64,000 nucleotides of DNA, from assembly GCF_040451425.1 (NCBI RefSeq), contig NZ_CP144374.1, positions 1,094,501 through 1,158,500 on the forward strand, written 5' to 3'. A model generated the notes under the pieces. The model made no database searches. It was not told the DNA's origin and saw nothing but the letters and a program-made list of their open reading frames with translations. The position numbers were made by a program, and so were the translations under genes. This document shows positions 41,408-44,348 of this stretch, piece by piece (position 1 is the first letter of the stretch; each line of letters begins with the position of its first letter). The stretch is from Thermodesulfovibrio sp. 3462-1 (GTDB taxonomy: Bacteria; Nitrospirota; Thermodesulfovibrionia; Thermodesulfovibrionales; Thermodesulfovibrionaceae).

Positions 41408-42577
41408 ATGGTTCATTCAGGCATAGATAGATTTGAAAAAAGGCTTCCTAAGAAATTTTATGGAGCTAAAGCAGGATTAGTTATTCATCCAGCCTCAGTA
41501 AATAGAAAACTTGTACACACCAGAGATATTCTTCTCGAGAGCAAAAAAATCAAAATTACAGCCTTTTTCGGACCGCAGCACGGAATATTTGGAAATACTC
41601 AGGACAACATGATTGAATGGGAAGGATTTATTGATAAACAAACAGGATTGCCTGTATTTAGCCTTTATGGAAAAACGAGAAAGCCAACAGAAGAAATGCT
41701 TAAAAATCTTGATATTTTGATTATTGATCTTCAGGATGTTGGAGCAAGATACTACACATTTATCTGGACAATGGCTTTGTGTATGGAAGCCTGTAAAGAA
41801 AAGGCAATGCCGATGATTGTGCTTGATAGAGTAAATCCAATTGGTGGACACATAGTAGAAGGACCTGTGCTTATGCCAGAGTTTTCATCTTTTGTAGGAC
41901 TTCATCCATTGCCTGTCCGCCATGGAATGACTATTGGAGAGATTGCGTTTTACTTTAAAGATAAGTTTTACCCAGAACTTGATCTTACAGTAATTCCTCT
42001 TTATGGATGGAAAAGAAATCAATGGTTTGATGAAACAGCGCTGCCCTGGGTAATGCCTTCTCCAAACATGCCAGCCCTTCAGACAGCGACAGTTTATCCT
42101 GGAATGTGTCTTTTTGAGGGAACTATTTTAAGCGAAGGAAGAGGCACCACAAGACCATTTGAAATATTTGGTGCACCCTTTATAGAGCCTGAGAGGCTTG
42201 TAAAAAAGCTAAATGAATTTAAGTTGAAAGGAGTATTTTTTAGACCTCTTTACTTTATTCCAACTTTTAACAAATTTTCTGGACATTTATGTGGTGGTGC
42301 TCAAATTCATGTAATTGATAGAGAAAAATTTAAACCTTTTAAAACTGCTGTAGCAATTCTTCTTGCAATAAAAGAGCTGTATCCAGAAATTAATCTTTGG
42401 CGCGAACCTCCCTATGAATACGAGTTTGAGAAACTTCCCTTTGACATTCTTGCTGGTTCAGATAGATTAAGGAGAGAAATTGAAAAAGGAAAATCTCTTA
42501 AGGATATGGAGTCCTGGTGGACTAAAGAGTGTGAAATGTGGGCAAAAGTAAGAAAAAAATATCTCCTATATGATTAA
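41408..42577 (+). CDS. namZ: NamZ-like exo-beta-N-acetylmuramidase (DUF1343)
   Basis: A 389-residue DUF1343 protein. The characterised member, NamZ of Bacillus subtilis, removes MurNAc from the non-reducing end of peptidoglycan fragments. Family segments: FFGPQHGIFGNTQDNM, LIIDLQDVGARYYTFIWTM, DRVNPIGG, PVRHGMTIGE, PSPNMPALQTATVYPG and LSEGRGTTRPFE. There is no signal peptide; the Met directly follows the tolB stop, so the enzyme looks cytoplasmic, whereas the Bacillus enzyme is secreted. The next gene overlaps by 8 bases and would use the released MurNAc. Confidence 0.88.
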   Translation: MVHSGIDRFEKRLPKKFYGAKAGLVIHPASVNRKLVHTRDILLESKKIKITAFFGPQHGIFGNTQDNMIEWEGFIDKQTGLPVFSLYGKTRKPTEEMLKNLDILIIDLQDVGARYYTFIWTMALCMEACKEKAMPMIVLDRVNPIGGHIVEGPVLMPEFSSFVGLHPLPVRHGMTIGEIAFYFKDKFYPELDLTVIPLYGWKRNQWFDETALPWVMPSPNMPALQTATVYPGMCLFEGTILSEGRGTTRPFEIFGAPFIEPERLVKKLNEFKLKGVFFRPLYFIPTFNKFSGHLCGGAQIHVIDREKFKPFKTAVAILLAIKELYPEINLWREPPYEYEFEKLPFDILAGSDRLRREIEKGKSLKDMESWWTKECEMWAKVRKKYLLYD

Positions 42578-44348
42578 AGGATTCATTCTTGCTGCAGGAT
42601 ATTCAACCAGACTAAGGCCAATTACAGAGCATATTCCCAAACCATTGATGCCAATTGCTGGCGAAGTCTTACTTGAATGGATTTTTAAAAATTTAAATGC
42701 TTTGACCACAGAGATTGGCATAAATTTGCATTATAAAGCAAAGAAAATTGAAGATTACATAAAAAAGCAGAATCTTCCATTAAAAACATTTTATGAAAAA
42801 GAAATTCTTCTTACAGGCGGAGCACTGTGGAATGCAAAAAATTTTCTCAAAGACTCTGTTTTTGTTGTCCATAATGGAGATATTTATTCTGATGCAAATA
42901 TTAAAGAAGCAGCAAAATGGCATATAGAAAACGAAAACTCAATAACTCTCCTGGTTCATGATTACAAGCCTCACAATAAATTAATTGTTGATAAAGATGG
43001 AAATTTACTTGGAATCGGAAATTCAGATAAATCTCATCTTGCCTTTTCAGGAATTGCTATTTATAGCCCTCACGTGCTTGAACTTTTGCCTGAAGGTCCT
43101 TCATCAGTGATTGATTTGTGGATGAGAGCCATTAAAAATGGATTCAGGGTAAGCACCTTTAAAATAAAATACAGCTTCTGGTTTGACATTGGAACTCCGG
43201 GGGATTATGCCAGTGCAGTCTTTGATAAATTAAAGAGGAATTTTACTTCTGTATACATTCATCCTTCAGTGTGTGGATGCGAGCTTATTGAACCCGAAGG
43301 TAAAATAGTGGTTGAAAGAGATGTAAAAATAAATAAGCCATTTAAGGGAAAAAATATCATAATTCTGCCTGAGACTGAATTTACACCTGAAAATGATTAC
43401 CTTTCAAACCTCATAATTGGTAAAAATTTTATGATACCATTTGAGACACCACCCATTGAAACATTAACTTCTGGTGGATCTGATCGAAAATACCTCAGAG
43501 AAAATAACAAAGTCTTTTGCAAATGGGAAAAATTATCAGAGGATTTTGAAAAAACGATTGCTTTAAACAGGTTTTTTCATGAAAAAGGATTCCCTGTGCC
43601 TAAAATCCTTGAAGTAGACATAAATAAAAAAACGATTGCTTTTGAAGATCTTGGAGATTTAACACTTTACAGCTGGCTTCAATGCAGGAGAAGAGATAAA
43701 AAAATTGAGACAATATATAAAAAAATACTTGAAAATATAGGAAAACTTCACTGGGGAATCTCTAAACAAGCAAAGAATCTTAACCTTTTAGAGTTTGACT
43801 ACTCCTATTTTCGCTGGGAAAGCAATTACTTTTTACAGGAATGTGTAAAGGCGCTCTTTAAAATTGATGAAAACTTAGAAGAAGAATTACACAGTATTGC
43901 AGAAATTTTATCAAAAGCTAAAAAGGTGATACTGCACAGAGACTTGCAAAGTCAAAACATAATGTTAAAAGAAGGAAAGGTTTATTTTATTGACTACCAG
44001 AGTGCAAGATGGGGACCTGCAGGTTATGACATAGCTTCACTTCTCTGGGATCCATATGTAAAACTCAATGATGAAATGAGAATAAGACTTGTCAATTTCT
44101 ATATCAAAAGCCATGAACTTGATGAAAAAGCTTTTTTAGAAGAACTTTCTCTATGCAGAATCCAGAGACATATGCAGGCTCTTGGAGCATACGGATTCCT
44201 GTCTTTAAAAAAAGGAAAGAGAAATTTCCTTAAATTTATTCCTGATGCAATAGACTTACTGATAAAGGACCTTGAAGAATGTCATATTGATTTCTCAAGG
44301 CTAAAAAACCTTGTTTTTAACATCAAAAAACAGATCTTTAATATTTAG
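42570..44348 (+). CDS. MurU-AmgK fusion: sugar-1-phosphate nucleotidyltransferase plus sugar kinase
   Basis: A 592-residue two-domain protein. Residues 1-~225 are a nucleotidyltransferase with LAAGYSTRLRPITEHIPKPL, VVHNGDIYSD and FWFDIGTPGDY, resembling MurU (MurNAc-1-phosphate uridylyltransferase). Residues ~300-590 are an aminoglycoside-phosphotransferase-fold kinase with GGSDRKYLR, AFEDLGDLTLYSWL, the catalytic loop HRDLQSQNIM near 455 and the metal motif FIDYQSARWGPAGYDIASLLWD, resembling AmgK (anomeric MurNAc/GlcNAc kinase). In Pseudomonas these are two separate proteins that turn MurNAc into UDP-MurNAc, bypassing de novo synthesis. A linker (~225-300) has beta-rich sequence of unknown use. 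The substrate is inferred from the NamZ-like gene it overlaps; another hexose is possible. Its end overlaps the convergent cytochrome gene by 48 bases. Confidence 0.85.
   Translation: MIKGFILAAGYSTRLRPITEHIPKPLMPIAGEVLLEWIFKNLNALTTEIGINLHYKAKKIEDYIKKQNLPLKTFYEKEILLTGGALWNAKNFLKDSVFVVHNGDIYSDANIKEAAKWHIENENSITLLVHDYKPHNKLIVDKDGNLLGIGNSDKSHLAFSGIAIYSPHVLELLPEGPSSVIDLWMRAIKNGFRVSTFKIKYSFWFDIGTPGDYASAVFDKLKRNFTSVYIHPSVCGCELIEPEGKIVVERDVKINKPFKGKNIIILPETEFTPENDYLSNLIIGKNFMIPFETPPIETLTSGGSDRKYLRENNKVFCKWEKLSEDFEKTIALNRFFHEKGFPVPKILEVDINKKTIAFEDLGDLTLYSWLQCRRRDKKIETIYKKILENIGKLHWGISKQAKNLNLLEFDYSYFRWESNYFLQECVKALFKIDENLEEELHSIAEILSKAKKVILHRDLQSQNIMLKEGKVYFIDYQSARWGPAGYDIASLLWDPYVKLNDEMRIRLVNFYIKSHELDEKAFLEELSLCRIQRHMQALGAYGFLSLKKGKRNFLKFIPDAIDLLIKDLEECHIDFSRLKNLVFNIKKQIFNI

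Follow-up and report, generated by a model that had tools for sequence, protein, structure and literature searches.

How is muramic acid recovered from cell wall turnover by a bacterium whose genome yields no match to AnmK? The recycling described for Gram-negative bacteria begins with AnmK and continues with either MurQ or MupP, AmgK and MurU (PMC5371407, in the accessible part of the source). The question is raised by the genome of Thermodesulfovibrio sp. 3462-1, in which neither AnmK nor MurQ was matched, and by a locus within a 64,000-nucleotide stretch of its contig NZ_CP144374.1 (the window, in what follows). Two overlapping genes of the window encode a NamZ-family protein and a fusion of a MurU-like nucleotidyltransferase with an AmgK-like kinase. 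Judging from the sequences and their genomic context, it is likely, with a probability of roughly three in four, that the two genes form a cassette for cytosolic salvage of N-acetylmuramic acid (MurNAc) that stands in for AnmK.

In the route that we propose, lytic transglycosylases would make turnover fragments, and AmpG would import those composed of N-acetylglucosamine and 1,6-anhydro-MurNAc (GlcNAc-anhMurNAc). A cytosolic NagZ-like enzyme of the GH3 family would take off GlcNAc and an AmiA-like amidase would take off the peptide, leaving anhMurNAc. The cytosolic NamZ variant would convert the muramic part to free MurNAc, the kinase half of the fusion would phosphorylate it, and the transferase half would then make uridine diphosphate-MurNAc (UDP-MurNAc). 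All of these enzyme activities are predictions from sequence, as is the precise compound on which the NamZ variant would act.

The NamZ protein and the MurU-AmgK-like fusion

A preliminary description of the locus had named the two products as NamZ-like and as a MurU-like/AmgK-like fusion, and the best matches in Pfam and NCBIfam bear this out at the family level. The NamZ protein of the window scored 285 bits with NamZ_N and 192.9 bits with NamZ_C of Pfam, where the gathering scores are 26.9 and 25. Its AlphaFold2 model (predicted local distance difference test score, pLDDT, 89.6) has the NamZ fold, with a template modelling (TM) score of 0.89 to 4k05; sequence identity is 34% to 4k05 and 32% to 4jja, both of which are Bacteroides NamZ structures.

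The protein begins at the start of the domain, and no signal peptide was seen by reading of its N-terminal end and with a hydropathy window, no predictor having been run; the preliminary description had likewise seen none. Export from the cytosol, counted as a feature of the NamZ family, is thus not apparent here on the same N-terminal reading. Some of the plasmid-borne NamZs considered below also appear to be without a signal peptide, and export is therefore not a firm feature of the family. That a signal peptide was missed through a wrong start seems unlikely: the window's namZ starts on the tolB stop codon, and 79 of the 93 NamZ rows shorter than 600 amino acids (aa) begin no more than 10 residues before the window's start position. 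Under the longest-frame rule, 10 of the remaining rows begin 11-50 residues and 4 more than 50 residues upstream. The longer frames of four loci (L033, L067, L126 and L134 in our numbering) contain a hydrophobic stretch and are probably due to wrong starts. By N-terminal reading, no clear signal peptide was found in the cassette NamZs, and none in the GH3 enzyme, the AmiA-like protein or NagA.

In the fusion, Pfam places NTP_transferase at residues 3-216 (69.5 bits) and APH at residues 296-511 (63.1 bits). Among the 18,950 NCBIfam models, MurU was the best for the N-terminal half (101.7 bits) and AmgK the best kinase for the C-terminal half (73.8 bits); when the halves were scored separately, each family was still the best for its half, with 105.2 bits for MurU (residues 1-232) and 76.2 bits for AmgK. 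The model of the fusion is well defined (pLDDT 94.5, no residue below 50). By sequence the nearest solved structure is that of MurU (4y7t), and the model has the MurU fold, with a TM score by target of 0.87 at 31% identity, a fold that other nucleotidyltransferases fit as well. The kinase half fits 3csv (TM score by target 0.71), and the HRD...N...D signature of the APH fold, formed by H456, R457, D458, N463 and D475, is invariant both in 24 and in 49 sequences.

Since the NCBIfam scores are weak, and mannose-1-phosphate and heptose-1-phosphate transferases score too, one may imagine that the fusion activates another sugar, of the heptose or mannose type, for lipopolysaccharide or capsule and that NamZ is its accidental neighbour; the best fold E-values, which belong to GDP-mannose pyrophosphorylases, point the same way. 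We consider this very unlikely in view of the fact that the two halves, scored apart, have MurU and AmgK as their best families, and of three features of the genomic context that are described below: the conserved linkage to NamZ, the alternation with AnmK and MurQ, and the clustering in some families with genes for AmpG, NagA and the NagZ-like and AmiA-like enzymes. On this gene context a non-muramic sugar was set aside as the main substrate of the fusion.

Distribution and alternation with AnmK and MurQ

The preliminary description had suggested a search of other genomes for the same fusion. It is present in 69 of the 92 genomes of the class and additionally in 12 genomes of family f23, and at an E-value of 1e-10 a relative of the fusion was found in 212 of the 245 phylum genomes; in the rest of the phylum, as in genome G060, each half has its match in a gene of its own. 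In these counts G093 and G186 were scored as fusions though cut by contig ends, and the halves of the G080 fusion (f23) are split between two contigs. When named genomes were scanned, the best 80 loci among the matches listed came mostly from Thermodesulfovibrio and other Nitrospirota; the other carriers are Thermodesulfobacterium, Caldimicrobium, Hydrogenedentes, Rokubacteria, WOR-3 and a deltaproteobacterial metagenome-assembled genome. The pairing of NamZ with the fusion is not due to chance, because a NamZ gene adjoins the fusion gene, upstream and on the same strand, in 67 of the 80 loci. The gap between the two genes is at most 30 bases in 41 loci, 31-300 bases in 22 and more in 4. Among the 13 loci where no NamZ gene stands upstream, 5 are too near a contig end to judge (L065, L086, L114, L120 and L121). 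NamZ was found in 88 of the 245 genomes of the phylum; in the class, 68 genomes have both a short NamZ and the fusion, and each of the two is found without the other in 1.

Within the class, the fusion and AnmK exclude each other. Of the 92 genomes of the class, 69 contain the fusion, 17 contain AnmK and none contains both; a full-length MurQ accompanies AnmK in all 17. These counts were compiled from search listings and cover weak matches as far as they are among the matches listed; the MurQ counts omit weak SIS-domain matches of 40-48 bits, including those of G075, G083, G093 and G166 in the class. Five families (f4, f6, f7, f8 and f12) contain both the fusion state and the AnmK state and, with family sizes held fixed, the chance of zero overlap is 0.0028 by a test that rests on family labels and not on a species tree. 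AnmK was found in 148 of the 245 genomes of the phylum, where three patterns occur: AnmK together with MurQ, AnmK together with unfused MurU-like and AmgK-like genes, and the fusion together with NamZ. None of the 12 fusion genomes of f23 is among the AnmK matches listed.

Beyond the phylum, we tested 13 fusion genomes chosen among the 80 loci, of which 10 clearly fit the alternation and 3 are unclear. In seven, AnmK is missing and NamZ is plainly short; in three, all Rokubacteria, AnmK is missing too, and the NamZ frames measure 500-804 aa, their starts being uncertain; the last three, all Hydrogenedentes, have AnmK, and their only NamZ lies in a frame of 732-769 aa. Three near-complete genomes of the class (G104, G109 and G154) gave no match to the cassette, AnmK, MurQ, AmpG or GH3, as if muropeptide recycling had been lost there.

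The other genes that the proposed route would use are present in the genome to which the window belongs. The importer for which the preliminary description advised a search is represented by an AmpG-family gene scoring 444 bits, above the cut-off of 350. There is also a GH3 gene (208.6 bits with PF00933; 143.8 bits with the NCBIfam beta-N-acetylhexosaminidase model, under its cut-off of 207), an AmiA-like amidase gene (198 bits) and three SLT matches, so that the muropeptide-recycling set of AmpG, NagZ-like GH3 and amidase is represented. The AmpG and GH3 genes overlap each other at a locus away from the cassette (L038), where a response-regulator/histidine-kinase gene (10765-11832) lies directly 5' of the pair. 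Among the 69 fusion genomes of the class, GH3 was found in 68 and AmpG in 53, 5 of these AmpG matches being below the family cut-off (G101, G124, G134, G196 and G213); an AmpG-family match was found in 4 of the 17 AnmK genomes. SLT is present in all 101 class genomes searched and the AmiA-like amidase in 65 of them, a few of these matches being weak. AmiA-like (DUF1460) amidases are specific for anhydro-muropeptides.

In some families these genes stand close to the cassette. At all six loci taken from family f3 the fusion shares one stretch with AmpG and NagA. That stretch also contains GH3 except in L036 and L037, the AmiA-like gene except in L032 and L037 (four loci each), and NamZ in five loci, the NamZ of L035 being on another contig. 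The region from GH3 to NamZ spans 8-13 kb at these loci. At L084, NamZ, the fusion, AmpG and AmiA-like genes follow each other in a row. In two genomes of family f26, G008 and G017 (L039 and L040), it is AnmK and MurQ that accompany the GH3-AmiA-AmpG-NagA set.

Taken at the family level, the linkage with NamZ, the alternation with AnmK and MurQ and the presence of the AmpG, GH3 and amidase genes make the MurNAc salvage purpose assigned in the preliminary description likely. Several observations weigh against a cassette standing in for AnmK, apart from the reliance of the within-family test on family labels. The scores of the fusion halves are far below the equivalog cut-offs, which are 250 bits for MurU and 550 bits for AmgK, and by fold E-value GDP-mannose pyrophosphorylases outrank MurU, which comes first at rank 13. 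No AmpG match was found in 16 of the 69 fusion genomes, and six genomes of the class carry neither route. In G239 a short NamZ has no fusion within the surrounding 9.3 kb. Rokubacteria carry the fusion and no AnmK, but their NamZ has Glu at position 57 (see below) and does not adjoin the fusion in the stretches seen. Finally, the AmpG of Tannerella forsythia is reported to carry GlcNAc-MurNAc besides GlcNAc-anhMurNAc (PMC7670621, in its accessible part); from such cargo NagZ would free MurNAc without any NamZ.

A glutamate-to-glutamine change in NamZ and its possible meaning

Where AnmK is missing, the gene present is almost always, among the cases seen, a Gln-type NamZ gene, which overlaps or lies near the gene of the kinase that is predicted to need free MurNAc. 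Position 57 is Gln, within a PQHG motif, in 80 of the 83 cassette-type NamZs and Glu in three, which are from Rokubacteria. The Glu of the PEHG motif is kept in all 18 other NamZs compared, namely in all 7 long NamZs, in all 9 that were fetched from plasmids, and in 4k05 and 4jja; the window's protein, with Q57, departs from this conserved feature of the family. The plasmid sample comprises 9 of 29 plasmid matches, from Paenibacillus, Streptomyces, two haloarchaea, Deinococcus, Spirosoma, Parabacteroides, Cupriavidus and Acetoanaerobium. In the comparison identical cores were counted once and incomplete cores were left out. In a NamZ tree of 54 rows, for which the cassette type was thinned by random draw and in which several outer rows are long, the Gln type forms one side of a single branch with support of 98/96, and the nearest Glu type is that of Rokubacteria. 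Of the relatives available, 53 of 66 entered alignment A3 and 48 of 73 entered alignment A4.

In the NamZ of Bacillus subtilis, Glu92 was reportedly named as the likely catalytic residue, and we take it to be the counterpart of the PEHG Glu, i.e., of position 57 here. Because Gln replaces this conserved Glu, the activity of other NamZ enzymes is not simply transferable to the cassette NamZ. Nor does the change just reflect a cytosolic location, since some of the Glu-type plasmid NamZs also seem to be without a signal peptide. The loop that follows the motif (residues 62-70, with TQDNM) is rebuilt relative to other NamZs, and the model is least certain there.

The loss of the conserved Glu could mean that the Q57 protein is catalytically dead and serves the fusion as a muropeptide-binding sensor or scaffold. 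This seems unlikely: 85 columns are invariant across 54 NamZ sequences with a mean column identity of 74%, E178, E237, D107 and D140 are retained in nearly every NamZ compared, and the partner with which the protein alternates, AnmK, is an enzyme.

Tentatively, the cytosolic Q57 NamZ may be a 1,6-anhydro-MurNAc hydrolase, in which water opens the intramolecular beta-glycoside and the resulting MurNAc is passed to the AmgK half of the fusion. As anhMurNAc is an internal beta-glycoside, a variant of a beta-muramidase could open its ring. In this boldest reading of the data, a single step catalyzed by NamZ would replace both the ATP-using AnmK and the phosphatase MupP. The uptake of larger fragments, which the preliminary description had deduced from cleavage inside the cell, would not be needed; the usual cargo of AmpG would be enough if the variant acts on anhMurNAc.

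Ring opening and the cleavage of MurNAc from longer chains appear to us about equally likely. If the second holds, the cassette NamZ would be an exo-beta-N-acetylmuramidase of the ordinary kind that happens to be located in the cytosol, and the difference from the route proposed above would lie in its substrate: NamZ would alternate with NagZ on imported MurNAc-GlcNAc or longer chains, MurNAc would be freed and the terminal anhMurNAc lost. The possibility is consistent with the preserved fold and with the retention of most conserved residues, 57 positions being common to the cassette NamZ and the long NamZs. It also agrees with two haloarchaeal plasmids (L160 and L161), on which the NamZ gene adjoins a GH3/nagZ gene; these haloarchaea are not known to possess murein. 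Yet GH73 glucosaminidases, the known source of the MurNAc-GlcNAc ends that are the known substrate of NamZ, were matched (PF01832) in 3 of the 69 fusion genomes and not in the genome of the window, other glucosaminidase families not having been searched. Acting as an ordinary muramidase, moreover, NamZ would leave the exclusion of AnmK unexplained, as well as the replacement of Glu by Gln in 80 of 83 proteins, and GlcNAc-anhMurNAc is the principal requirement of AmpG according to the accessible part of PMC7670621.

A separate kind of NamZ, of about 780-830 aa with a hydrophobic N-terminal end and the PEHG motif kept, occurs in the class (L146, L147, L148 and L150). Its long N-terminal part reads like a serine hydrolase of the beta-lactamase type, although an annotation as serine hydrolase is attached to the Cupriavidus NamZ alone. 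NamZs of about 800 aa were also considered as partners in the pathway and seem unlikely ones: genomes with the cassette and genomes with AnmK both contain such copies, and Glu is kept in those fetched.

The locus and known recycling systems

The coordinates given in the preliminary description, the 8-base overlap and the start directly after tolB are exact (Table 1), the TAA stop codon of tolB (41405-41407) touching the ATG of namZ. A promoter scan was uninformative, with 20 sites against 23.3 in shuffled sequences. A convergent gene for a multihaem-cytochrome-like protein (44301-46253, minus strand) has 48 bases in common with the 3' end of the fusion gene.

Table 1. The NamZ and fusion genes, their parts and the upstream tol genes, in positions of the window
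Feature	Position	Strand	Remarks
NamZ-family protein (GH171-like, formerly DUF1343), 389 aa	41408..42577	+	FGPQHG motif, Q57 replaces Glu; no signal peptide seen
MurU-like nucleotidyltransferase / AmgK-like kinase fusion, 592 aa	42570..44348	+	
MurU-like nucleotidyltransferase domain, about aa 1-220	42570..43229	+	PDB 4y7t, 9e-20; NCBIfam MurU match
Strand-rich middle part, about aa 221-294, between the domains	43230..43451	+	Mostly well ordered in the model
AmgK-like APH-fold kinase domain	43452..44345	+	H456-R457-D458, N463 and D475 invariant
Overlap of the two genes, 8 bases	42570..42577	+	
tolQ, tolR, tolA, tolB	38564..41407	+	Upstream neighbours; outside the widely conserved cassette

In the window the cassette follows tolQ, tolR, tolA and tolB head-to-tail, an arrangement that the preliminary description connected with constriction of the envelope. 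The TolB protein (40217-41407) is divergent, scoring 161.8 bits against an NCBIfam cut-off of 343.15. The link to tol genes is not general, because a tol gene is directly upstream of the cassette only in L052-L056 of the 80 loci, which are the closest ones (NamZ 74-81% identical). It is nevertheless not confined to one genus, because three further loci have single tol-like genes in their flanks: Caldimicrobium L103 and L113 have a TolQ-like gene some 2 kb downstream (174 and 182 bits against a cut-off of 221), and L091 has a TolB at a distance of 5 kb and on the opposite strand. At the two Caldimicrobium loci a futalosine-hydrolase-like gene lies between the fusion and the TolQ-like gene (9496-10218 in L103, 9523-10209 in L113), and a thioredoxin gene follows. 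Around the other 72 loci, several of which have short flanks, no tol match was found at an E-value of 1e-5. With tol matches at 8 of 80 loci and a direct upstream position in 5, the tie to Tol-driven constriction is weak, and the idea that the cassette serves the Tol-Pal constriction machine, suggested by the order of genes in the window and by these flanking genes, is in our view most improbable.

The relation of the cassette to the systems described so far may be summarized as follows. With the Pseudomonas-type route of AnmK, MupP, AmgK and MurU it would share the last steps, in which a MurNAc kinase and a MurNAc-1-phosphate uridylyltransferase lead to UDP-MurNAc (PMC5371407, accessible part). 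Unlike that route, it is without AnmK (0 of 69 fusion genomes of the class), its AmgK-like and MurU-like domains are fused, a predicted cytosolic NamZ is in the operon, and MupP would not be needed. With the E. coli-type route of AnmK and MurQ it shares GH3 and, in part, the AmpG, NagA and amidase genes, but it stands where AnmK and MurQ are absent, these two being found in 17 of the 92 genomes of the class. The cassette NamZ has the same fold as the NamZ of B. subtilis and the Bacteroides structures 4k05 and 4jja, and differs from them in the change from PEHG to PQHG, the rebuilt loop 62-70, the linkage to MurU-AmgK and the absence of a visible signal peptide.

A further related system is that of T. 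forsythia, which has AmgK and MurU but no predicted AnmK ortholog, and which grows on GlcNAc-anhMurNAc and poorly on anhMurNAc by a route that the 2020 paper leaves open (PMC7670621, accessible part). NamZ enzymes of this bacterium are known, as the title of a cited work indicates; in contrast to the organisms discussed here, it is a MurNAc auxotroph and also has MurK/MurQ. Neither an AmgK-MurU fusion nor an exchange of NamZ for AnmK was found in the literature searched, which most subscription papers lie outside, and phrases for an anhMurNAc hydrolase had no match there. Within that literature the system is thus a variant not found before, built from the AmgK, MurU and NamZ families, which are themselves known.

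The main interest of the locus lies in the exchange of NamZ for AnmK and in the Glu-to-Gln change that accompanies it, neither of which the preliminary description had noted. Many genomes keep SLT and GH3, and mostly AmpG, while giving no match to AnmK, and the altered NamZ would fill this gap. If NamZ of the cassette does open anhMurNAc, this would be a new enzyme activity and would establish a third route of muramic acid recycling. Such an anhMurNAc hydrolase could also bear on the use of anhMurNAc by T. forsythia, which proceeds without an AnmK ortholog.

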